IMG/VR virus record: IMGVR_UViG_3300028840_000557 | Span: 1-33,951 of that record | Length of the DNA: 33,951 nt | Source of the DNA: a virus | Strand: one strand, 5' to 3' | In this document: piece by piece, positions 3,275 through 33,951 of the stretch | Numbering within the stretch: position 1 is the stretch's first letter | How the letters are laid out: every line of letters begins with the position of its first letter | Program-made: the position numbers and the translations under genes | The notes under the pieces: model-generated | Told to the model about the DNA's origin: nothing | The model's database searches: none | The model's input: the letters and a program-made list of their open reading frames with translations, nothing else

Positions 3275-4528
3275 TTAATAAGTTATAAGTGGATCAATGC
3301 CATAATCGCCATAAGGCAATTCGTCCCCTTCTATATTAGAAGGATTCCCATATCTTAAAAGCTTAATCTCTTTATTGTCAGTATCAACAACAATAAAAGT
3401 CAGCATGTCCTTTGTCCCTGTTTCTTTCTGCCTGGTATACCCAGGGGAGCTTGAACTCAAAGACGGGATTTCAATATTATTGTATTGATTGCCATTTATT
3501 GTAATCTTACTAATTATTGGGTAATGATCATGTCCGCAAAAGTAACTAACAAACACCCCATTAAATCCATTAATCGTAGAGAAATCAACATTCAATGAAA
3601 ATTCAAAATCGGTTGTCGTGTCATTCATTACAACCGTTCCTTGCTGTGCAAAAGCATCAATAATATTCTGAACAGCCTGTTTACTTGTATTGTAAGTAGA
3701 TGCGGTTTGTAAAAGCTTATGTCCAAATATTATAACGTGGTAATCCTCGTCCGGTAAGTTTAAAGCCGTTTCCGCAAGCCACGTTAATTGTGCTTGAGAG
3801 TAGTTTATGGCGTTTTGAGTGTAAGTATAATCCGTCCCATCATTAACCTGGGAAACGTCATTTTCATCAAGCACAATTACCCGAACTTTAAATTGGTCGG
3901 AAGTAGTTGGGCCGGACTGTACATAGTCTTTATAATAATAATTGGCATTGCCAGAACCCGCAACAACATTATTAACATTGGCAATTATGGGGTCTATCAA
4001 TGATGTGCGTAGTTCTGCCTTGGACATAACCGTGTCAACGGCATCCCCGTAAAGCGCATTCATGTCATGGTTGCCAATCGCAAATAAAAGGTCAACGGCA
4101 TAGGCTGCGCCTATAACAGCCAATTCAGCGTATCTATCTTTAAAAACTTGTTTGTCCGGGTCTTCCCTCATAAAGTCACCTTGCACCACCATAGCATGGA
4201 CTATCTGTTCTGGGTTAATATCCGAGTTCCTTTTATCCCATTTTATCAGTTCAATAAAAGTATTGGCCCTGTCCAAAGCATCTAAATCCCAGTGCATGTC
4301 TGGACCTGAACCAATAACGAAATTTGATTTCATGGCTGAAGCGGCACCGGTTTGTGGGTCACGCCTACGAAAGAAAGCAGGAATACGCTGAAGCCCCTGC
4401 ATGATATTACTTAATTGCCATATCGGTATATTAGCCACACCCGAAGCATACAACTCAGTGAAGTTATCATTGATTGCATTTCTGGCAACCAGTCCAGAAT
4501 CGCCATTATTTATTGTGGTCTGCGCCAT
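3275..4528 (-). CDS. Tail-associated protein with calcineurin-like metallophosphoesterase domain, 417 aa
   Basis: Residues 1-27 (TTINNG...NAINDNFTELY) match the virion-anchoring start common in phage tail and head fibres. Residues 70-340 contain every motif of the binuclear metallophosphoesterase fold in order: D77-x-H79, G117-D118, G152-N-H-D155, G269-H270 and G332-H-D-H335. The enzyme family hydrolyses phosphoester bonds with two metal ions. In a tail protein the likely targets are phosphorylated surface glycans, lipid A or teichoic-type polymers, or diester-linked decorations; the substrate cannot be read from sequence. The C-terminal 80 residues are beta-rich. The start ATG 4528 overlaps the TAA of the upstream adhesin gene (TAATG), so the two are made together. 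The DNA is AT-richer than that of the capsid genes. Confidence 0.85.
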   Translation of the reverse strand: MAQTTINNGDSGLVARNAINDNFTELYASGVANIPIWQLSNIMQGLQRIPAFFRRRDPQTGAASAMKSNFVIGSGPDMHWDLDALDRANTFIELIKWDKRNSDINPEQIVHAMVVQGDFMREDPDKQVFKDRYAELAVIGAAYAVDLLFAIGNHDMNALYGDAVDTVMSKAELRTSLIDPIIANVNNVVAGSGNANYYYKDYVQSGPTTSDQFKVRVIVLDENDVSQVNDGTDYTYTQNAINYSQAQLTWLAETALNLPDEDYHVIIFGHKLLQTASTYNTSKQAVQNIIDAFAQQGTVVMNDTTTDFEFSLNVDFSTINGFNGVFVSYFCGHDHYPIISKITINGNQYNNIEIPSLSSSSPGYTRQKETGTKDMLTFIVVDTDNKEIKLLRYGNPSNIEGDELPYGDYGIDPLITY

Positions 4529-5853
4529 TATGTTATTACCCCTTTAGAGTTTGAATCCATGTAAGCCTCAAAAGCATCTTGGAAATCACCACACTCAGCA
4601 GCAGTTAATGCACCCCCCATGAAAAACATTGATAATTGTCTGTTTGAAGGTTGTGCTAATCCAGACCCTATCGTATTTATACCAAAAATATAAACATCGC
4701 CATTGCCCACGCCATCCGAGCCAGCGTCATCTTGTGTTTGTGTTTTATTCTCATAAAAATATCGAGTGGGGCTGTTTTCTCGCACAGACGCCCTGAAACC
4801 AAGCGCACTTGTGACTGATATAACTGCTGAATCATTATCGTTAACCCTACTAATCATTGAATCAGTAGTGCTTCTTAACCCTATTTGCACATCATTATCC
4901 GCATCATTTAGGCCGGCCTCTATTGTGGACGCTTTTTGTCCATCTGTCCTTGAATATAACCCAATGGAAGCGGAGTCTTGGGCGTAATTTGTTGCATCTG
5001 TGGAAGGGTTATAGTTAGAATTTACGTAAGAATTTGCCGCATCACCCGCTAACCCCTCTAAAGAAACAAACGGCATTGAACCACCACCAAGAACTATTGT
5101 TGCATTATTCGTTCCTGGGTTAATCCAATTTATAAGAGCCTCTGAAGCCGCATTGCTTTCTTGTGCAAACACGTAGAATACATCAAGTTTCGCCCAAATA
5201 CCATCAGCAACTAACGCCCTGACCAATATATCTTGTGCTGCAGCAACATCAGCGCTTGGTTTGTTGGTCATGGCATTATAAACAACCTGGTATTCGGGAG
5301 AATAGTCTTCGGAAACAACACTGACGTTGCTGAAATTGTCAAATGGTGTAGACGTATAATCATCCATGAATATCGCCAGGTCGTTATTTGTGCCTGTCAA
5401 TACCAAATCAAGACCTTTCTTGTCTGTTGCGGTCGCCCCGGATACATCCGACCCGCCAGAAGCCACTAAGCCCCTATCTCTACCGAACAGCCTGATCTTA
5501 TTCTGGAAATCCAAAGTCCAAATAACCCAACGGCCTTTTTTAAGGCTATTTAGATTAGCAAGGTCTGCCGGCTTCACATGAAACAAGGTCATGGTGATCG
5601 TCTGTGTTAGAAACGATGTTCCGTTCTCTTTGGAAACGGTTGGGGTTTCCTCAAAACTTCCAACATTATCAACCATGTCAAATTGAAACAGGTTTATTGG
5701 AACAGCCCCAAGGTCTGTAATTTCACCGCCACTTTCAACAATGCCAGTCAACGACGCAAAGTCATTGTATTTTGTGAAAAATATGGTTTTAATTCCAGCC
5801 CGTCCAGTTTGACAAGCACCCAATAAACGGCCATTCGTTAAATCGCAAGTCAT
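4528..5853 (-). CDS. Chimeric tail protein: tail-tube-like N-domain fused to adhesin C-domain, 441 aa
   Basis: Residues 1-185 are a clear paralogue of the 182-aa protein at 8291-8839. Both open with CDLTNGRLL and share GRAGIKT, DFAxLTG, ESGGE, GRWVI, LDFQxKIRxFGR and ADKKGLD or TDKKGLD. That protein looks like the tail tube subunit. Residues 190-441 are a different module beginning YNAMTNKPSADVAAAQDI, then KLDVFYVFAQ, WINPGTNN and SLEGLAGDA, a pattern found in Bacteroidota phage tail appendages that resembles LamG/jelly-roll adhesins. The simplest reading is a tail-tube domain duplicated and fused to a receptor-binding domain, so that an adhesin can be built into or onto the tail. ATG 5853 follows the AT-rich context AAAAAATTGAAGAT. 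Confidence 0.75.
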   Translation of the reverse strand: MTCDLTNGRLLGACQTGRAGIKTIFFTKYNDFASLTGIVESGGEITDLGAVPINLFQFDMVDNVGSFEETPTVSKENGTSFLTQTITMTLFHVKPADLANLNSLKKGRWVIWTLDFQNKIRLFGRDRGLVASGGSDVSGATATDKKGLDLVLTGTNNDLAIFMDDYTSTPFDNFSNVSVVSEDYSPEYQVVYNAMTNKPSADVAAAQDILVRALVADGIWAKLDVFYVFAQESNAASEALINWINPGTNNATIVLGGGSMPFVSLEGLAGDAANSYVNSNYNPSTDATNYAQDSASIGLYSRTDGQKASTIEAGLNDADNDVQIGLRSTTDSMISRVNDNDSAVISVTSALGFRASVRENSPTRYFYENKTQTQDDAGSDGVGNGDVYIFGINTIGSGLAQPSNRQLSMFFMGGALTAAECGDFQDAFEAYMDSNSKGVIT

Positions 5854-8290: not shown

Positions 8291-8839
8291 TTAATAAGCC
8301 GGTGTTACAGTTACGCCAGCGAAATTATCAAACGGATTGGTAGTAAAATCCTCGAGGAATATGGCATAGTCGTTCTCCTCAGCCATAAAGGTCATGTCCA
8401 GACCCTTCTTATCTGCTGCAGCTACACCACTCGTCTCGCTACCTCCATTCGCAGTACAGCCGTTGTACCGACCAAAGACCCTGATTTTATCTTGGAAATC
8501 CAAGGCAAAGATTACCCATCGGCCCAGCTTCAGGTTGTTCAAGTCTGCCAGGTCTGCCGGTGCAATACCAAACAGCGTCAGCGTCAATGTCTGTGCGATA
8601 TAGGATGTCCCATTATCTTGGTTCGCATTCACCGCCTGCTCGAACGACCCTACATTATCAGCCATCTCAAACCTGTGGATGGTGATTGCATCCGTTCCGA
8701 TGTCAAGTTCACCGCCAGATTCAGAAGTGCCTGTCAAAGCAGCAAAATCAGCCAGGCTTGCATAGAACAAGGTTTTTATCCCCGCTCTGCCTACCATACA
8801 TTCGTCTAATAGGCGTCCATTCGTTAAGTCACAACTCAT
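8291..8839 (-). CDS. Probable major tail tube protein, 182 aa
   Basis: The length and pattern (SYIAQTLTLTLFG, then LGRWVIFALDFQDKIRVFGR, then AADKKGLDMTF) fit phage tail tube subunits, in which a beta-barrel ends in a strand of this type. It is the only gene in the virion block with that pattern apart from its own paralogue, the N-terminal half of the 441-aa protein at 4528-5853. It lies between capsid and portal genes. A head or neck protein is the alternative. ATG 8839 follows ACTTCATACTGAT. A long hairpin (8862-8901) separates it from the capsid gene and may set its dose relative to capsid. Confidence 0.6.
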   Translation of the reverse strand: MSCDLTNGRLLDECMVGRAGIKTLFYASLADFAALTGTSESGGELDIGTDAITIHRFEMADNVGSFEQAVNANQDNGTSYIAQTLTLTLFGIAPADLADLNNLKLGRWVIFALDFQDKIRVFGRYNGCTANGGSETSGVAAADKKGLDMTFMAEENDYAIFLEDFTTNPFDNFAGVTVTPAY

Positions 8840-20277: not shown

Positions 20278-21528
20278 CTACGACACAGAATAGCTTCCAA
20301 AGTTCGGGTTGCGCCTGATATGAGCCACCCCGTACCTGATTCCATCGATGCCGTGATCCCAGCCCTTGACAGGCTCTCCCAAGAACTCCCCGGTGTTTTT
20401 ATCCTTCTTATATGAATACCTGCGGAACTCCTTGATCGTGTTGGTGCTGTCCTTAGTCACATTCGTAACAAAGCCCTTCATCGTCCTCAACCCATGCCGT
20501 ACACTGTCTGGCCCTTTCACTGAAGGGATCACATTCAGACCCATACCCCTTAACTCTGCATTCGACTTCGGCTCTGCTGAGTCTGCCACAATCTCGACCT
20601 GCGTCCTCAGCTTCAGCAGCTGCTCATGGCTCATCTCCTCGATGTCGTCCATCTCTTTGAATATCTCCCGCTTCAGACAGTCATGGATGTCTTTATTGAA
20701 CATACCAGTCTTATACTCGATCTCTCTGGCCCAGAACTGACCATCTGAATACATCAGCTCGTTTATCGCTGTCGGGTCTTGACTGAACCCATAATCGACT
20801 ACGAATATCCTGCGCTTGTATTCCTCCGGTAAGGCATCGCACTTCTGCCAGTTCTTCCCCTCCTCAAAGATCAGCCCTTCCAGTGATCCATACTTACCCA
20901 ATACATAGACCCTGTAAAAGTTAGGGTCGGTGTTGGCTCTTGTTTCCAACGCATCGATGATGCTCTGCTCGACATGTGGGTTATCGTGATACGTGGCATG
21001 TATCACCGCCACATCATCCCTCTGATCTTGCAGCTTGGTAGCCCAGAACGGTGCTACCGGATTCCAGGTGAGGAGTATCTGCAGCCTCGTCCTGATCTCC
21101 ACCTGGTCGAATATCCCTTTCTTGACGACATACGCCTCATCTATCAGCACCAGGTCATGCCTCATGGCTAAGAATCGCAGCTCCTCGTCTGCCGGTACGA
21201 ATTGTAGGATTGAGCCCTTCGGAAAATAGTAGGTATTGTCCACCTTGTTAAACCGGTCGGGGTCGTACTTCCTTCCCATTACGATGGTCTGCCAGTCCCT
21301 GAACACGGATTTCTTTATGACCGGCACCGACTCACCGATGACAGTGATCACCAGCGGTACCTCGCTCACCTCGCCCCAGGTGGTGATATATTGAAGGGCC
21401 GATATGGTCTTGCTTGATGAACTACCCCCGTATAGACAAATAATCCGCTTATCGACTACCTCTGACAAGCGGGTGAACACATTCGTAGTGACGAACGGCA
21501 CATTGTTATCCGGTGCGCTTCTTATCAT
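20278..21528 (-). CDS. terL: Terminase large subunit, 416 aa
   Basis: All motor and nuclease motifs are present: Walker A GGSSSSKT (34-41), Walker B LVLIDEAY (126-133), a coupling motif LLTWNP (152-157), and nuclease acidic residues at D245 (VVDYGFSQDP), D316 (IVADSAEP) and D391/D395 (GWDHGIDGIRYG). The enzyme pumps DNA into the prohead and cuts it. The order and spacing fit the PBSX/SPP1-type family (Terminase_3). Length is normal. The start overlaps the small subunit by 23 bases. Promoter B lies immediately after the stop. Confidence 0.95.
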   Translation of the reverse strand: MIRSAPDNNVPFVTTNVFTRLSEVVDKRIICLYGGSSSSKTISALQYITTWGEVSEVPLVITVIGESVPVIKKSVFRDWQTIVMGRKYDPDRFNKVDNTYYFPKGSILQFVPADEELRFLAMRHDLVLIDEAYVVKKGIFDQVEIRTRLQILLTWNPVAPFWATKLQDQRDDVAVIHATYHDNPHVEQSIIDALETRANTDPNFYRVYVLGKYGSLEGLIFEEGKNWQKCDALPEEYKRRIFVVDYGFSQDPTAINELMYSDGQFWAREIEYKTGMFNKDIHDCLKREIFKEMDDIEEMSHEQLLKLRTQVEIVADSAEPKSNAELRGMGLNVIPSVKGPDSVRHGLRTMKGFVTNVTKDSTNTIKEFRRYSYKKDKNTGEFLGEPVKGWDHGIDGIRYGVAHIRRNPNFGSYSVS

Positions 21529-21973
21529 TGTGTTTGTGGATCACATCCATCACACGGTTCACAGCAGCCTGGTTCTCCTTCACAATGAAAGCCGGTTTAT
21601 CCTCGATGCTTATCTCCTGACGCTCCACATAGCCCCTCGACTTCATTCTGGTCTTTGCGAAAAATATCGTCATGGTGATATTCCCATCCTGTATAGCCTT
21701 CATTATCTTGGACTCCACGAAATCAAAAGAAAACTCCGTCACCTCCTCTGCCGCTGCCGCATACTTACTGTCCGCCTTGATCCACCGGTGATGGGTGCTG
21801 CGCTCAATCCCTACCGCTTTCGCTGCTTGGGATATATTGCCCAGGTTCTTTTTCAAGGCTTCCAGCATCGCTTTCTTTTTTACCGCTGTTGCAGCCCGTG
21901 GCGATACCGCCCCCTTCTTTCTGGGAGCTTTCCTGCTCTGCTTAGCCTTTGCCGGTGTCTTTTTTGCAGGCAC
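21506..21973 (-). CDS. terS: Terminase small subunit, 155 aa
   Basis: The start is a GTG at 21973, two bases after the TAA of the preceding gene; the first ATG is 35 codons later, inside the basic tail. Residues 1-35 are Lys/Ala/Arg-rich. Residues 40-70 form a helix-turn-helix (NLGNISQAAKAVGIERSTHHRWIK, split here by its turn) that would bind the packaging site. Residues 78-110 (DFVESKIMKAIQDGN, FFAKTRMKSRGY) are typical of this family. It recognises phage DNA and hands it to the large subunit, whose gene it overlaps. Confidence 0.9.
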   Translation of the reverse strand: MPAKKTPAKAKQSRKAPRKKGAVSPRAATAVKKKAMLEALKKNLGNISQAAKAVGIERSTHHRWIKADSKYAAAAEEVTEFSFDFVESKIMKAIQDGNITMTIFFAKTRMKSRGYVERQEISIEDKPAFIVKENQAAVNRVMDVIHKHNDKKRTG

Positions 21974-21975
21974 GG

Positions 21976-22164
21976 TTATTCCTTTATCGGTGAAGCATGC
22001 CCAGCTTTTGGTAAATACTCCGCCATTAGCATTTTCTCAACAGCAGTGGAGGCACTTGCTGCATCAACAGCATCACCATCAACCTTAGCTCTCGGAATAC
22101 ACGACACAATGGAATAAATCTTTTCCCAAAGTTCCGATCTTGATACTTCGCTTCTGTTTTCCAT
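21976..22164 (-). CDS. Unknown small protein upstream of the terminase, 62 aa
   Basis: ATG 22164 follows CATAAAAATTACAACT. The product begins MENRSEVSRSELWEKIYSIV and has an Ala/Asp-rich middle, with no membrane segment or Cys cluster. It sits between the second glycosyltransferase and the small terminase, with 17 bases before and 2 after, so it is translated with packaging genes. No family recognised. Confidence 0.65.
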   Translation of the reverse strand: MENRSEVSRSELWEKIYSIVSCIPRAKVDGDAVDAASASTAVEKMLMAEYLPKAGHASPIKE

Positions 22165-22181: not shown

Positions 22182-22943
22182 TTATACGCCTTTGATTGGC
22201 ACTGAGACTCTACCATTGAGGAGATCGCCCATTTTCTCGGCAGGCATCTTATACCGGATCACTCCCGATCCCCACTTCTCGATGATCGCTTTGCAATACC
22301 GCTCCTCGTATTCCATCGTCCTCATGGAAACTATTCCGCCTGCGTTGTCTCCATGTCCACAAAAATACGCCATTTTCTCCACACGGAGCAGCTTCCTGTA
22401 CCGGTGCATCTGTTGTAAAGCCATATCGTAGTCGTCCTTGCTTCCCATTGACTCATCGAATAACAAGTCATGGTCAAGATGTACCTGAAATGGCCCAAGG
22501 GTTATATTGGTAAGGCTGAAGGGTCTGAACTCCTTGTACTCACGCTCATCGCCCGCTGTCCTCTGTGATACGCCCCACATCTTACAGCCAAAGCCATCCG
22601 CTACCTCTGTGAATTGATTCAGGACTGCGTTGACTCTCTGTTTCGGTAGCTTGATGAATGAGATGAATCGCTTCTGCTCCCTGGTTCTCCCCTCCATGTA
22701 TAACAGGTGCCTCACATCATCGTCCAACATGAGCAACGGTCGTGGGATGTTTTGCAATATCCAGTTGCGCTTCTTTGCAATGTTTCCATCCGCCTCATCC
22801 GGAATTACGATCATGCGCTTCTCGGGTAACACCTTCAGGTACTCGTCCCTCTGTGATTCAGGCAGGACATATTTTGCGCCTGAGAAGTAAAGCTTCCCCT
22901 CCAAGTTGTGCGACCGCTTGTATGTAGGTATTACGATGTTCAT
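22182..22943 (-). CDS. Glycosyltransferase, TET-associated (TAGT) type, 253 aa
   Basis: A GT-A-fold enzyme with the N-terminal signature IPTYKR (5-10), a DGNIAKKRN nucleotide-binding-like segment (52-60), the metal-binding LDDDV (73-77), an acidic catalytic-looking block (FDES...DDYDM, 162-174), GGI (202-204), KWGSGV (223-228) and a C-terminal PIKGV. The family (TET-associated glycosyltransferase) is known from phage DNA-modification gene clusters, where it adds sugars to modified bases. A close paralogue is at 24791-25510. The start ATGA overlaps the radical SAM stop. No 5-methylpyrimidine oxidase or hydroxymethylase is visible in the genome, so the acceptor base, and even DNA as substrate, is inferred. 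Confidence 0.75.
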   Translation of the reverse strand: MNIVIPTYKRSHNLEGKLYFSGAKYVLPESQRDEYLKVLPEKRMIVIPDEADGNIAKKRNWILQNIPRPLLMLDDDVRHLLYMEGRTREQKRFISFIKLPKQRVNAVLNQFTEVADGFGCKMWGVSQRTAGDEREYKEFRPFSLTNITLGPFQVHLDHDLLFDESMGSKDDYDMALQQMHRYRKLLRVEKMAYFCGHGDNAGGIVSMRTMEYEERYCKAIIEKWGSGVIRYKMPAEKMGDLLNGRVSVPIKGV

Positions 22944-23653
22944 TGTTCCTCGTGCCTGAAGTCCTCTGGGTATTCGATATATCCAATAACCGGCAACAGC
23001 CTCTTAAGGTTTTTCTTCGGCTTCACTGTGGTGAATTTGCCCAGCTCATAAATCAGCTCCTGCAACTTCTCCCCATCCGGTTCTGGTAGTTTATTGCCTC
23101 CTGAATCTGCTCCGATGTTTACCTGTTTTGGCCTGCACTGTTTTACAAGCTCTACCAATTCCTCCAGATCAAAGTCCATTACCGGCTCGATGGTCACATA
23201 GGTATCGAATGATTCAGCCAACACACCCAGCCAGTTTGCCCTGTCCATGGGTGTCGGTGTCCTTCCCATCTGAACATAGTTGCGATTCGTCTCAATGGTC
23301 ACACATAATGCTGAGCCCTTCGGAATGATCTGCCTGAAATCATACATCAACTGCGGATTCTTCGTCTGAAACAAATACCTGTTATCTGGGTACATGGAGC
23401 AATGTATCAAAGTGTCCGCTACCCAGCCGTGCTTTATTCCTTCTGCAAACAGGTCACAGGATGAACCCACAAAGATGAAATTACCAATGCCCAAGTTCGT
23501 GCGAAGCTCTTTTTCATCCAACCGTACAGGGTTGAGGTTTCCCCACCGCTTCATGTAGCAATAGTCGCAATCATGTGGGCAGGCTCCCTTCACAGCATTC
23601 CAGGTGTGCGTCACCCAATCGTACATATTGCCTTTCGATTCATTGAGTCCCAT
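22940..23653 (-). CDS. Radical SAM protein of the phage Gp37/Gp68 (DUF5131) type, 237 aa
   Basis: The radical SAM cluster is CPHDCDYC (residues 25-32, C-x3-C-x2-C) in the setting WNAVKGACPHDCDYCYMK, as in DUF5131/Gp37-Gp68 phage proteins. FVGSSCDLFAEG, QTKNPQLM, VTIETNRNY and VTIEPVMDFDLEEL follow in the family order. Such enzymes bind a [4Fe-4S] cluster and cleave S-adenosylmethionine to start a radical reaction; the phage substrate is unknown. It is coupled on both sides (TGATG with the DUF7694-like gene, ATGA with the glycosyltransferase), so it is probably functionally linked to the latter. Confidence 0.8.
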   Translation of the reverse strand: MGLNESKGNMYDWVTHTWNAVKGACPHDCDYCYMKRWGNLNPVRLDEKELRTNLGIGNFIFVGSSCDLFAEGIKHGWVADTLIHCSMYPDNRYLFQTKNPQLMYDFRQIIPKGSALCVTIETNRNYVQMGRTPTPMDRANWLGVLAESFDTYVTIEPVMDFDLEELVELVKQCRPKQVNIGADSGGNKLPEPDGEKLQELIYELGKFTTVKPKKNLKRLLPVIGYIEYPEDFRHEEQ

Positions 23654-24006
23654 CAGTTCATATCGTCTTTAGGGTGGTTGTTTATTACCGGCTTCTGATC
23701 GATCTCAAACAGGTGTAGGGTGTTCGGGTGCATATTCACAAACTCCGCCTCCGGTGGGAATATCTGCGCCATGTACACATCGTCAGGCAGGTACTTGTAC
23801 CGGGCAAACTTCAGCTCTGCATAAACCGGCAGCCGGTTCGGCAGGGATATGCTCAGGTGCCATTTATCATCGTCCAAGCTGAGTATGTAGCCCACCTGTA
23901 CGACCCTGAAGCCGATCAATTTCTTGCCGACCTTCGCCCTGAACTCCTCCTTAGTGCAAGGGAGAGTTAAGACATTGTTCTCGTTTCCATCTACTGCGAT
24001 TTTCAT
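23653..24006 (-). CDS. DUF7694-like phage protein, 117 aa
   Basis: I chose ATG 24006, which follows the standard leader CCTAAAATCAGAGAA and overlaps the stop of the 38-aa gene as ATGA. The segment KWHLSISLPNRLPVYAEL followed by an FPPEAEFVNMHPNTLHLFE block matches small phage proteins grouped as DUF7694; their function is unknown. The start of the radical SAM gene overlaps its TGA. I therefore read it as part of the same translation unit as the modification genes. Confidence 0.65.
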   Translation of the reverse strand: MKIAVDGNENNVLTLPCTKEEFRAKVGKKLIGFRVVQVGYILSLDDDKWHLSISLPNRLPVYAELKFARYKYLPDDVYMAQIFPPEAEFVNMHPNTLHLFEIDQKPVINNHPKDDMN

Positions 24007-24119
24007 TTCTCTGATTTTAGGTTTTTGCACTTCGACTTGAGGGTATCCGGGCAATGAGAACACATCCCATCGCAATCGGATGCCCACAAATACAATCGAT
24101 CTAATAGTTTCCGGAACAT
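24003..24119 (-). CDS. Tiny four-cysteine protein, 38 aa
   Basis: ATG 24119 shares its A with the TAA of the preceding gene (TAATG), and the TGA at 24003-24005 overlaps the ATG of the next gene (ATGA). The frame fills the space between them exactly. The product, MFRKLLDRLYLW...SEK, has four Cys at positions 16, 20, 23 and 31 (C-x3-C-x2-C-x7-C), enough for a zinc or iron-sulphur site. The double coupling is the main evidence that it is real. No family recognised. Confidence 0.65.
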   Translation of the reverse strand: MFRKLLDRLYLWASDCDGMCSHCPDTLKSKCKNLKSEK

Positions 24120-24244
24120 TACCTCCGGTTTTTCCTGCCTGCCGACTTTCCTTTTGAATAAATCATGTAGCCGAGGACAAAGACAATAATTCCAATCGCA
24201 ACTATTCCTGCGATGGCTCCGAATGTAAGTGTTAATGTGGTCAT
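24119..24244 (-). CDS. Single-pass membrane micro-protein, 41 aa
   Basis: ATG 24244 follows CACCTAAACATATCATT. Residues 4-29 form one membrane helix (TLTFGAIAGIVAIGIIVFVL plus GYMIY), followed by a basic tail (SKGKSAGRKNRR), which predicts the tail in the cytoplasm. It lies directly after the endolysin gene, so a pinholin or lysis regulator role is possible; other holin candidates are at 27441-27918. It is coupled to the 38-aa gene by TAATG. Confidence 0.7.
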   Translation of the reverse strand: MTTLTLTFGAIAGIVAIGIIVFVLGYMIYSKGKSAGRKNRR

Positions 24245-24271
24245 AATGATATGTTTAGGTGAATATTAAAA

Positions 24272-24787
24272 TTATCTCAATTCAAGGTGAGGCATATCAA
24301 TGAAAGTGCCAGGCTCAAGAAACTGCGTATCCCTATCCCAATCAGCTCCCGATCTCAGCTGGTGTTCGATCTTGCCCTGTCCATGCAGCCATTTACCAAT
24401 AGTCAGGAATGAACCGACCAGCACCATCATGTGCGCTTTATCATATCTCAAATCAGGCCTGCCAGGGATATAAGCAGATACATCAATGGCATATCCAAAG
24501 CCATCCGCTTTTTTCTGGTGGTTTGATTGCTTATGGTAGCCATCACAATAGGTAACTACGCCACCAGTCTTGATCCATGCCTGCGGGTTCGTCCTCGGCA
24601 ATCCACCGGCATTACTGTACGTCCGACCTATCTGCCAGAGCTTGTGCTGCTCCTCCTGCGTCCTGACTCCATCGGTCAACGTGAAATCAATAGGTGAGCT
24701 CTCTGTCGCCACCTTGATAATCTTGATCAGGTCATCGTGTAGCCCTGACTCCAATACTTCGATACTTCTCTTTCCAAGTGTCCACAT
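24272..24787 (-). CDS. Endolysin, M15-type (VanY/L-Ala-D-Glu peptidase-like), 171 aa
   Basis: The fold is that of zinc peptidases of family M15. FTLTDGVRTQEEQHKLW lies at residues 35-51. A zinc-binding H90 in SNHQ is followed by D102 in AIDVSAY, and the closing DMPHLE supplies H167; SGADWDRD matches the late loop of phage L-alanyl-D-glutamate endopeptidases. It cuts peptidoglycan cross-bridge peptides at the end of infection. There is no signal peptide, so release depends on a holin. It lies about 2.2 kb away from the spanin-holin group, wedged between the first glycosyltransferase and the micro-membrane gene. Confidence 0.85.
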   Translation of the reverse strand: MWTLGKRSIEVLESGLHDDLIKIIKVATESSPIDFTLTDGVRTQEEQHKLWQIGRTYSNAGGLPRTNPQAWIKTGGVVTYCDGYHKQSNHQKKADGFGYAIDVSAYIPGRPDLRYDKAHMMVLVGSFLTIGKWLHGQGKIEHQLRSGADWDRDTQFLEPGTFIDMPHLELR

Positions 24788-24790
24788 AGT

Positions 24791-25510
24791 TCAAATTCCT
24801 TTGTATGGTGATTTAGGTGTTAAAAATACGCCTCGCTTCTGATCCCAATTAAGAACATCGCTTCCCCACTTCGTCAGCAGCTTCTTGCTGTCCGCCAGGC
24901 TCTCCTCCTTCGATTCTATCCCTCCGGTCTGCTTCTCGTCTTTCATCTTGCAGGTCAAGCTGAAATGATTAAACCGCAACGCTCTGCTGTCTCTGTGAAC
25001 GTGCTGCAGCCAGAAGTCCATGTCCGACTGACGGTCAAGTGATTCATCGTACCGCAGCTCAGTGATCAGTAGTCCTGTCACCGTGTAAAAGAACCGGCCC
25101 AATGAAAACGGTAGGTTTACCTCCTGGTGCAACGGCTGCACATCGGCACTGAACCCAAACAGGTGAGCGCCAAAGCCCTGAGCCACATGGAAAGCATTGT
25201 GTAACAGACCCATAAATTCCCAATCCATCAACAGCTGATTTGATAAAGTGGACTGTACCGATACAAAGTCATCGTCTATCATAACCAGACCCTTGTTGCC
25301 CCTTTCCAGAGCCAAATCAATACAGGCATTCCTTTTCCTTGCGATATTCCCGTCTCGTTCATCCTTGATCGTCAATACCCTGCCAGGATAGTTCTGCTCG
25401 TAGTCCTCTCGCTGTGATTCAGGAACCACAATGTGCGCCTCGGGAAAGTACTGCGCTGTCGGCTGCTGTGCCGGTCGGCCATAGGACGGTATGAACAGCT
25501 CCCATTTCAT
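24791..25510 (-). CDS. Glycosyltransferase, TET-associated (TAGT) type, second paralogue, 239 aa
   Basis: It shares an ordered motif set with the protein at 22182-22943: IPSYGRP (7-13), VVPESQRE (28-35), DGNIARKRN (53-61), MIDDDF (77-82), GFG, YDES...DMDFW (154-167), GGIES (196-200), KWGSDV (214-219) and the C-terminal PYKGI. Two diverged paralogues in one phage suggest two sugar additions or two acceptors. The start overlaps the ParB-like stop as ATGA (25507-25510), so ParB-like protein and glycosyltransferase are translated as a pair. A host-glycan target is the main alternative to DNA. Confidence 0.75.
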   Translation of the reverse strand: MKWELFIPSYGRPAQQPTAQYFPEAHIVVPESQREDYEQNYPGRVLTIKDERDGNIARKRNACIDLALERGNKGLVMIDDDFVSVQSTLSNQLLMDWEFMGLLHNAFHVAQGFGAHLFGFSADVQPLHQEVNLPFSLGRFFYTVTGLLITELRYDESLDRQSDMDFWLQHVHRDSRALRFNHFSLTCKMKDEKQTGGIESKEESLADSKKLLTKWGSDVLNWDQKRGVFLTPKSPYKGI

Positions 25511-26085
25511 AGCCTGTTGATAACCGGTGCGCCCTTGATCACACGCCCGATACCTATCTTCTGGGATTTCACGGTCTTGATAGCTGACTTGACGTTCTTC
25601 AGACCCAGCTTCTCGACCGCTACCTGCCAGTCCATTGGGTTATCGAAATACAGCACCACGTAATTATGCTCAAGCAGCAGCTCCTCTGCAAACTCGATCT
25701 GGCCCTTCACATCAGCGCCCGGCCCCTCCTCTGGTGCCAAGTCCCAATTATCAAGCTCCTCGAAAGTGTACTCCTCCGCCAGCACCTCCTCATCCCATGT
25801 ACCGGCCTCCTTGTTGTCCAGGATCACAAACTTACGCCACTGCTCCGGTGTGAAGTCCTCCACCTTCTGCACCCATTCGTCAGGCACATCCTTGTAACCC
25901 AGCTCAAGCAAAGCTCGGTAACGCTGGTTCCCTCCTTGGATTACATTGTCTTTATCAACAGCTAATCCACGGACAGCTAACATTTCAGGAAAGCTCTCGA
26001 TGTCACTCTTCAGCTTCTCCATGTTCGCCTTGGTGATCTTACGTGGGTTCTTCTCATTCGGTTTAAGGTCTGCGAGTAATATCAT
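25507..26085 (-). CDS. ParB-like (ParB/sulfiredoxin-fold) protein with extra C-terminal domain, 192 aa
   Basis: Residues 1-75 have the ParB nucleotide-binding fold: LADLKPNEKNPRKITKANME and the hallmark GGNQRYRALLELG (51-63). Members in phages act as CTPases, nucleases or DNA-binding guides. After an acidic linker, residues 138-192 form a second small domain (YVVLYFDNPMDWQVAVEKL then GLKNVKSAIKTVKSQ), unlike chromosome-segregation ParB. No partner ParA is present, so plasmid-type partition is unlikely. Translation coupling with the glycosyltransferase suggests a role in choosing or holding the DNA to be modified (inference). The upstream gap holds a weak terminator and an inverted repeat. Confidence 0.75.
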   Translation of the reverse strand: MILLADLKPNEKNPRKITKANMEKLKSDIESFPEMLAVRGLAVDKDNVIQGGNQRYRALLELGYKDVPDEWVQKVEDFTPEQWRKFVILDNKEAGTWDEEVLAEEYTFEELDNWDLAPEEGPGADVKGQIEFAEELLLEHNYVVLYFDNPMDWQVAVEKLGLKNVKSAIKTVKSQKIGIGRVIKGAPVINRL

Positions 26086-33558: not shown

Positions 33559-33951
33559 TTACTTAACGAAATTCGCCATCATACCGCTTGCAATATCCTG
33601 AAGGTCACGCTTGCGGTCTGCGCTCTCCACCTCATTGGCAACGTGAGTGATACCCTGCGCCAATTTCCAGAGGGTGTTCTTCCCCTGCAGCCCATTCTCA
33701 GGATCGCTCTCGTACAAGGCTTTATTCAGCATCTCGACCTCGCCTTGAAGCATGCCGGTCTTTGGCAATGCCTTGACTTCGTTCTGGAAGTCCAGCTCAA
33801 TAGTTGAAGCCTCTTGGATCCTTTCTCTCTCCCTGGTCAGGTTCTCCTCAGAATAGACGCTATCCATGATGTCACGCACCATTAATGCCCTCGCCTTGGT
33901 GTCTGCCTCAACGGTCTCCTGAGCAAACGTGATAGCACCGGTCTCCTCGAT
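33559..33951 (-). CDS. DUF932-family phage protein, C-terminal part (joins to 861-1 across the circle)
   Basis: This is the end of the gene that starts at 861. Residues from the repeat (33951-33808, same as 144-1) are already counted there; the new part is 33807-33559 (82 aa plus stop). It reads SSTIELDFQN-like strands after the REREERIQEA-type helix (TRERERIQEAS), then GMLQGEVEMLNKALYESDPEN and a helical end (AQGITHVANEVESADRKRD). The internal ATG at 33882 should not be taken as a start. The full gene is 369 aa. Confidence 0.8.
   Translation of the reverse strand: MEETGAITFAQETVEADTKARALMVRDIMDSVYSEENLTRERERIQEASTIELDFQNEVKALPKTGMLQGEVEMLNKALYESDPENGLQGKNTLWKLAQGITHVANEVESADRKRDLQDIASGMMANFVK
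33808..33951. repeat. Direct terminal repeat, copy 2
   Basis: Identical to 1-144 over all 144 bases; see copy 1. It ends the window, so the non-redundant genome ends at 33807. Confidence 0.95.

Follow-up and report, generated by a model that had tools for sequence, protein, structure and literature searches.

A ParB-TAGT gene pair beside the terminase genes as a candidate cassette for phage DNA glycosylation without a dedicated base hydroxylase

Introduction

To our knowledge, DNA glycosylation in its known forms requires prior hydroxylation of the base, and the locus described here raises the question of how two putative DNA glycosyltransferases might operate in a phage with no visible enzyme for that step. 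The window, i.e., the whole stretch of 33,951 nucleotides that was analysed, is the complete genome of a small phage with a 144-bp direct terminal repeat, whose left copy (1-144) and right copy (33808-33951) are identical. The original prediction had placed in this genome two paralogous GT-A proteins of TAGT type, one coupled to a ParB-like protein and the other to a radical SAM protein, and had seen in them a candidate DNA-modification module directly upstream of the terminase.

Organization of the locus

All the genes of the block are encoded on the minus strand, in the following order: a ParB-like protein of 192 aa (25507-26085), the TAGT-type GT-A glycosyltransferase GT2 (239 aa, 24791-25510), an endolysin-like protein (24272-24787, phrog_465), a DUF7694 protein of 144 aa (23653-24087), a radical SAM protein (rSAM) of the DUF5131 family (22940-23653), a second TAGT-type GT-A glycosyltransferase called GT1 (253 aa, 22182-22943), a 62-codon ORF (21976-22164), the terminase small subunit (TerS, 21506-21973, phrog_4044) and the terminase large subunit (TerL, 20278-21528, with Terminase_3 and Terminase_3C), whose best named relatives belong to Bacteroides phages, at about 34% identity. 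The gene coupling proposed for the locus is present at both junctions, with ATGA overlaps between ParB and GT2 and between rSAM and GT1, and rSAM and DUF7694 overlap by one base. The placement of all these genes directly upstream of the terminase stands only in part: TerS and TerL do follow downstream, but the endolysin and DUF7694 genes interrupt the block and the 62-codon ORF precedes TerS. The endolysin-like protein probably lies outside the modification cassette. At the DNA level, a search of the block against phage records gave zero matches.

Two TAGT-type glycosyltransferases of different lineages

Both glycosyltransferases score above the Pfam cut-off of 27.5 bits for the TAGT profile PF20691 (40.7 bits for GT1 and 53.0 bits for GT2). 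The two proteins share 31% identity across 257 aligned columns, with an alignment score of 216 that lies far over those of shuffled sequences (mean 32, maximum 54). Their ends, P-I-KG-V in GT1 and P-Y-KG-I in GT2, follow the predicted P-x-KG-[VI] pattern, so that the paralogous pair with shared motifs is recovered, and the acidic DDD motif is intact in both (residues 74-76 in GT1 and 79-81 in GT2). A recent duplication was ruled out as their origin: the TAGT tree (63 rows kept at 85% identity) puts them in different lineages. GT1 belongs to a widespread TET-less ParB-TAGT clade, and the GT2 lineage is shared only with the genome L007, the sole close member found by a scan for it. Scanning the viral contigs with the single GT2 protein gave no matches, and alignments were used as queries instead.

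The predicted structure of GT1 has a GT-A fold (pLDDT 89). Among its viral structural matches, phage TAGTs come on top (E 1e-11 to 1e-17) and the T-even beta-glucosyl-HMC-alpha-glucosyltransferase is one of the best (TM 0.77), whereas GtrB (E 5e-5, TM 0.49) ranks behind many TAGTs. A surface-glycan enzyme of the Gtr/WrtF type is not supported by this fold search with the GT1 model, and the TAGT-type identity of both enzymes is upheld by the profile matches and by the proximity of the GT1 model to phage TAGTs. GT1 and GT2 would probably transfer a sugar to DNA.

A ParB-like protein with a private C-terminal domain

The ParB-like protein is made of a ParB N-domain (approximately residues 1-113), a flexible linker and a C-terminal domain (approximately residues 129-192, encoded at 25510-25701 on the minus strand). 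Its ParB_N score of 23.3 bits is just under the Pfam cut-off of 26.3, PHROG ParB families match it down to 1e-20 and its best Foldseek matches are ParB N-domains (E 1e-3, prob 1.00); profile and fold together place it in the ParB/Srx superfamily. Of the marks of a plasmid or chromosome partition ParB, namely a ParA partner and a parS-binding HTH domain, no ParA was found among the genes scanned. A defence system was discarded as an explanation, PADLOC giving only weak matches for rSAM and a methyltransferase model that matched via the ParB domain.

The region beyond the ParB N-domain matches no known family and carries the motif YVVLYFDN..DW...GIGRVIKG. The domain is confined to ParBs adjoining a TAGT in 91/91 surveyed loci (many of the survey contigs, here and below, are near-copies of one another). 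When the C-terminal domain alone was used for the scan, a TAGT lay downstream in all 69 newly read loci, as the immediate next gene in 66 and slightly further on in 3, and 22 of these 69 loci sit on contigs that the TAGT scan had missed. The domain, modelled with low confidence (pLDDT of about 55-80), may contact the TAGT.

Recurrence of the ParB-TAGT pair near the terminase

Unrelated phages repeatedly carry, near their terminase genes, a two-gene cassette in which TAGT comes directly after ParB. Among the 82 TAGTs with sufficient upstream sequence, 76 have ParB immediately upstream, the commonest spacing being a small overlap, and Bacteroides, Phascolarctobacterium, Victivallaceae, Flavobacteriaceae and Streptococcus all have the pair in prophages or contigs, a prophage of Bacteroides stercorirosoris DSM 26884 being one carrier. 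The linkage expected in relatives is conserved for ParB, TAGT and terminase but not for ParB, TAGT and rSAM. Some cassettes also include a UDP-galactopyranose mutase, an FkbM methyltransferase or a UDPG_MGDP_dh-domain protein, which fits sugar transfer. The literature that we searched gave no description of ParB-TAGT beside the terminase; key earlier work lies outside that search and we claim no priority.

In other phages, the same slot is occupied by ParB-TET, by ParB-TET-TAGT, by ParB-TET-GATase-GNAT-ADDT-kinase or by a ParB fused to a DNA methyltransferase, and the presence of these DNA-modifying enzymes argues that DNA is the acceptor. The ParB of the TET-carrying variants bears a different C-terminal domain, so that a DNA acceptor is transferred to the present phage by analogy of slot and partner.

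Search for a base hydroxylase

Over the whole genome, no match was obtained for a TET/JBP oxygenase (PF12851), a thymidylate-synthase-type hydroxymethylase (PF00303) or a C5-methyltransferase (PF00145), which bears out the earlier view that this complete genome has no visible hydroxylase. TET, thymidylate synthase and C5-methyltransferase were likewise found in none of the complete genomes L020, L052, L082, L143, L152, Javan291 and the Microbacterium phage Jayden, and Pfam models revealed no hidden hydroxylase in the window and 50 relatives. In an all-against-all comparison of eight complete genomes, ParB, TAGT and TerL were the only families common to at least four, and thus no shared hidden hydroxylase was seen. 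The maker of a hydroxylated pyrimidine that marks a TET/JBP-TAGT or T-even-type cluster was not found here.

Proposed mechanism

We consider it probable that the ParB-TAGT cassette glycosylates phage DNA under the guidance of ParB and without a dedicated hydroxylase. The ParB N-domain would bind phage DNA and the private C-terminal domain would hold or position the TAGT, which would move a sugar from a nucleotide sugar onto a base, DDD being the presumed metal/nucleotide-sugar motif. The two TAGT lineages may act on two positions, or sequentially, much as a second sugar is attached by the TAGT of T6-type phages. Because no dedicated base hydroxylase is present, the acceptor would be either a native base or a host-supplied group. 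We infer that the benefit of glycosylation would be protection from host nucleases; modification before packaging is suggested by gene order, its sole basis. A stronger version, which we advance only tentatively, is that ParB and TAGT are self-sufficient, put the sugar directly onto an unmodified base and travel as a mobile pair between unrelated phages at the terminase locus; we know of no precedent for such a direct linkage.

Alternative explanations

A two-step pathway, in which an unrecognised phage-specific or host enzyme makes a hydroxymethyl- or hydroxy-pyrimidine that the TAGT then glycosylates as in T-even phages, appears unlikely. It would agree with the TAGT contexts characterised in PMC13216743 and PMC13390438, which all begin from hydroxylated cytosine, with the dCMP hydroxymethylase or thymidylate synthase near the TAGT of STP4-a and Schubert, and with the many window genes that have no assigned function. 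Against it count the eight complete genomes, which lack TET, thymidylate synthase and C5-methyltransferase and among which no unknown family is common to at least four, and the likely hosts, which come from several phyla. That the TAGTs act on something else than DNA, for instance on a surface glycan or on a protein of the virion or the host, seems to us quite improbable. GT-A enzymes of similar size do modify glycans and proteins, the best PDB matches of the GT1 model are WrtF, TarP and GalNAc-transferases, and no enzyme that would produce a hydroxylated base is visible in the nearest relatives; the viral structural matches, however, favour TAGTs over GtrB-like enzymes by many orders of magnitude in E-value, the partner that recurs throughout is a ParB-type protein and the slot is filled in other phages by enzymes acting on DNA.

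Least probable in our view is that the base receives its acceptor group from rSAM, one of the options first proposed for this locus. Its assignment to DUF5131 is sound (32.5 bits against PF07505, with a cut-off of 28.9), with the CxxxCxxC motif present as CPHDCDYC at residues 25-32 and a score for the generic radical SAM model PF04055 that is under that model's cut-off. Several arrangements speak for a link: the ATGA coupling of rSAM to GT1, a radical SAM/SPASM gene between ParB and TAGT in L326, a radical SAM-like gene directly after ParB in L149, L150 and L175, and rSAM, ParB and TAGT inside 6 kb in L110. Yet L007, the closest relative to carry both TAGT lineages, has no rSAM, none was found in the remaining complete genomes with a TAGT, and most TAGT records are without DUF5131. 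Conversely, a TAGT occurs in 2 of the 50 rSAM-bearing records searched, or in 1 of 49 when L163, a ParB-scan record with a distant rSAM, is set aside. Tested in both directions, the genes do not track each other, and a fixed module of rSAM and TAGT was rejected as a rule, which makes rSAM an optional extra rather than a general acceptor maker. We propose that rSAM, DUF7694 and the endolysin gene are accessory to the cassette.

Significance and related systems

If ParB-guided glycosylation without a dedicated hydroxylase is true, it would constitute a second route to sugar-coated DNA, through a two-gene cassette distributed among phages of several bacterial phyla, would give ParB-domain proteins a new role as guides for modifying enzymes and could provide a compact DNA-labelling tool.

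The TET/JBP-TAGT hypermodification clusters, reportedly first described by Iyer et al. in 2013, are found as ParB-TET-TAGT-TerS-TerL and share with our locus the order of ParB, TAGT and terminase, but this phage has no TET and its ParB a different C-terminal domain. The T-even beta-glucosyl-HMC-alpha-glucosyltransferase (T6-type TAGT, PF20691, phrog_842) has the same family and fold and acts on DNA (PMC13216743, PMC13390438). It adds a second sugar onto already glucosylated 5hmC and is found beside a dCMP hydroxymethylase and an alpha- or beta-GT, unlike the present locus, which has none of these and combines two TAGTs with a ParB partner. Solitary TAGTs, whose presence PMC13216743 reports for 288 of 753 phage genomes with no alpha- or beta-GT, likewise come without the T-even glucosyltransferases; to this we add the pairing with ParB and the position near the terminase, and the cassette may offer a handle on the many that this source reports as unexplained. 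In phages with CmoX carboxymethylcytosine (PMC12783734), ParBc neighbours also place a ParB-domain protein beside a base-modifying enzyme, but this is a C5-carboxymethyltransferase and no glycosyltransferase is involved. Finally, thymidine hypermodification in Rhodococcus phage Tonitrus involves a ParB-like protein, a TET-like JBP, aGPT-Pplase2 and a 5hmU DNA kinase (PMC11955845). There, ParB heads a phage DNA hypermodification operon in which an amino acid:DNA transferase replaces TAGT and TET is present; the gene set of L227 resembles this system.

Organization of the locus

Both glycosyltransferase genes lie on the minus strand where the original prediction had placed them, GT1 at 22182-22943 and GT2 at 24791-25510, and their products match the TAGT family PF20691 with 40.7 and 53.0 bits, respectively, above the Pfam cut-off of 27.5 bits, as well as phrog_842, named 'beta-glucosyl-HMC-alpha-glucosyltransferase'. 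The two share 31% identity, with an alignment score far above that of shuffled sequences; both contain a DDD motif, and their C-terminal ends (PIKGV and PYKGI) have the expected P-x-KG-[VI] form. The predicted ATGA overlaps of GT2 with the ParB gene (25507-26085, minus strand, 192 aa) and of GT1 with the radical SAM gene were confirmed, and the radical SAM protein is indeed of the DUF5131 type, by its family match and a CPHDCDYC motif. This block had been described as lying directly upstream of the terminase: the small and large subunit genes (TerS, TerL) do follow GT1, but after a 62-codon ORF, and an endolysin gene (phrog_465) and a DUF7694 gene, both missing from the original prediction, split the two glycosyltransferase genes. 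Elsewhere in the window, 8291-8839 and 4528-5853 encode apparently paralogous proteins sharing phrog_19091 over their N-terminal 170-180 residues.

ParB and TAGT form a recurrent pair

GT1, GT2 and the enzyme of Streptococcus phage Javan291 were aligned, and the alignment was scanned against 2.9 million viral contigs, which are redundant; of the resulting 260 loci the best 80 were kept and read, as in the other viral-contig scans. Of the 82 TAGTs whose contig extends 400 bases or more upstream, 76 had a ParB directly before them, most commonly with an overlap of a few bases, and for the remaining six the nearest upstream partner was another TAGT or a ParB slightly further up. Chance would give far fewer such pairs, since ParB accounts for about 5% of all genes there (68 of 1306). 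Javan291 itself presents the order ParB, TAGT, a small HTH protein (likely TerS) and TerL, and Microbacterium Quhwahvirus phages carry ParB, a glycosyltransferase and a UDP-glucose dehydrogenase-like protein. The same pair was found by scanning GTDB genomes, in Bacteroides stercorirosoris and in MAGs from Phascolarctobacterium, Victivallaceae (two) and Flavobacteriaceae.

Most ParBs adjoining TET-less TAGTs have in common a roughly 60-residue C-terminal domain (YhVLYFDN..DW...GhGRVI.G), whereas ParBs in TET cassettes, beside radical SAM genes or fused to a methyltransferase have different C-termini. In these loci, mostly chosen by their TAGT, the domain-bearing ParB adjoined a TAGT in 91 of 91 cases, and 16 ParBs near a TAGT, most in TET cassettes, had no such domain. 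Because of this selection, the viral contigs were rescanned with the domain alone: all 69 newly read loci presented ParB with the domain and then a TAGT, as the next gene in 66 and further on in three, and 22 of them were on contigs not among the matches listed for the TAGT scan. The N-domain of the window ParB is modelled with confidence, whereas the linker after it is disordered and the C-terminal part is of poor model quality; the fold search retrieved, above noise, ParB N-domains only.

The tree places GT1 inside the TET-less ParB-TAGT clade, and GT2 groups only with its counterpart in L007, the closest relative with both lineages (74% and 58% identity to the window enzymes); a scan with the GT2 lineage gave no other close member among the matches listed. 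GT1 and GT2 may act on two positions, or add a first and a second sugar in turn, as described for T6 (PMC13216743). L081 and L082 contain tandem TAGTs of other lineages beside a UDP-galactopyranose mutase gene. Such mutase genes occur in or beside the ParB-TAGT cassettes of L081, L082, L152, L345 and L346, a hint that galactofuranose may be the sugar transferred, and the L181 cassette includes an FkbM methyltransferase.

The radical SAM gene is an optional neighbor

The expected linkage of ParB, glycosyltransferase and radical SAM protein among relatives held for the ParB-TAGT pair, but DUF5131 was seen in one of 50 TAGT records. Conversely, a TAGT was present in two of 50 radical SAM records, one of which (L163) has a distant radical SAM gene and was found by another route, and L007 lacks the DUF5131 gene. 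These counts speak against the suggested making of the acceptor by the radical SAM protein as a general rule. Genes of this type nevertheless stand occasionally beside ParB or inside TAGT cassettes (L110, L149, L150, L175, L326), and we read them, together with the GP88 genes, as genes either for optional tailoring or for an independent modification. A radical SAM isomerase reportedly acts in the thymidine pathway of phage M6, which makes a DNA-acting role plausible by analogy.

A radical SAM-like gene directly follows ParB in L149, L150 and L175, with TerL next in the first two, and in L326 (4189-5118) a radical SAM/SPASM gene sits between the domain-bearing ParB and the TAGT. The DUF5131 protein of L106 (7288-7956) has lost the second cysteine of CxxxCxxC (CPHGYTYC). 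In six loci (L013:2302-2919, L015, L016, L310, L318, L321) a GP88 protein (PF17338), possibly a further cassette member, is encoded between TAGT and TerL.

DNA as the likely acceptor

The exact 144-bp terminal repeat of the window record makes the absence of a gene meaningful. As anticipated, no base-hydroxylating enzyme is visible: the complete window genome gave no match in searches with TET/JBP (PF12851), C5 DNA methyltransferase (PF00145) or thymidylate synthase (PF00303), the family to which dCMP and dUMP hydroxymethylases belong. The other larger genes, most of them family-scanned, encode structural proteins, an Erf-like annealing protein, a metallophosphoesterase, a primosomal or replication-initiation-like protein and unknowns. 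The three enzymes were likewise absent from all eight complete TAGT-cassette genomes, comprising six TET-less metagenomic genomes with exact terminal repeats (the window, L020, L052, L082, L143 and L152) and the complete records of Javan291 and Jayden. In an all-against-all comparison of the eight, only ParB (seven genomes), TerL (six) and TAGT (six) recurred in at least four; the Jayden ParB and the L052 and L152 TAGTs were missed at the single-sequence threshold or by the ORF picker. The pair thus appears, from gene content, to travel among unrelated phages with no constant helper gene. The acceptor base may be modified by the host or prepared by an unrecognised enzyme, and direct glycosylation of an unmodified base is possible, though less likely than not.

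That the acceptor is DNA is likely, because the slot between ParB and the terminase genes holds DNA-modifying enzymes elsewhere, because the partner is a ParB, and because the GT1 model (pLDDT 89) is closest to phage TAGTs, including a T-even enzyme, and matches glycan enzymes only loosely; the sugar-related genes of some cassettes fit sugar transfer. The slot is a general site for such enzymes. Marine phages present ParB-TET-TerS-TerL and ParB-TET-TAGT-TerS-TerL, and in an independent ParB scan a ParB-DNA methyltransferase fusion occurred in 18 of 69 loci, and in 15 of these a terminase gene was no more than 5 kb away. ParBc neighbors are also described beside a phage cytosine-modifying enzyme, CmoX (PMC12783734).

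In L227 (1803-6048), as in L225, L226 and L228, ParB, TET, a glutamine amidotransferase, a GNAT protein, an amino acid:DNA transferase (PF18724, 75 bits) and a P-loop kinase directly precede the terminase genes. This marine set resembles the thymidine hypermodification set of Rhodococcus phage Tonitrus, in which ParB also comes first (PMC11955845), and would itself hypermodify thymidine, with TET providing the hydroxyl group. The P-loop kinases of L223 (1776-2300) and L227 (5515-6048) match phrog_800, whose name, 'terminase small subunit', could be a wrong label for a DNA kinase. In other ParB-TET cassettes, TET is followed by a protein of 324-325 aa (L230:3671-4645, L231:3308-4285), with a 324-aa gene at the corresponding place in L233 and L236; the L230 protein has no Pfam or PHROG match, and this protein might be a new glycosyltransferase.
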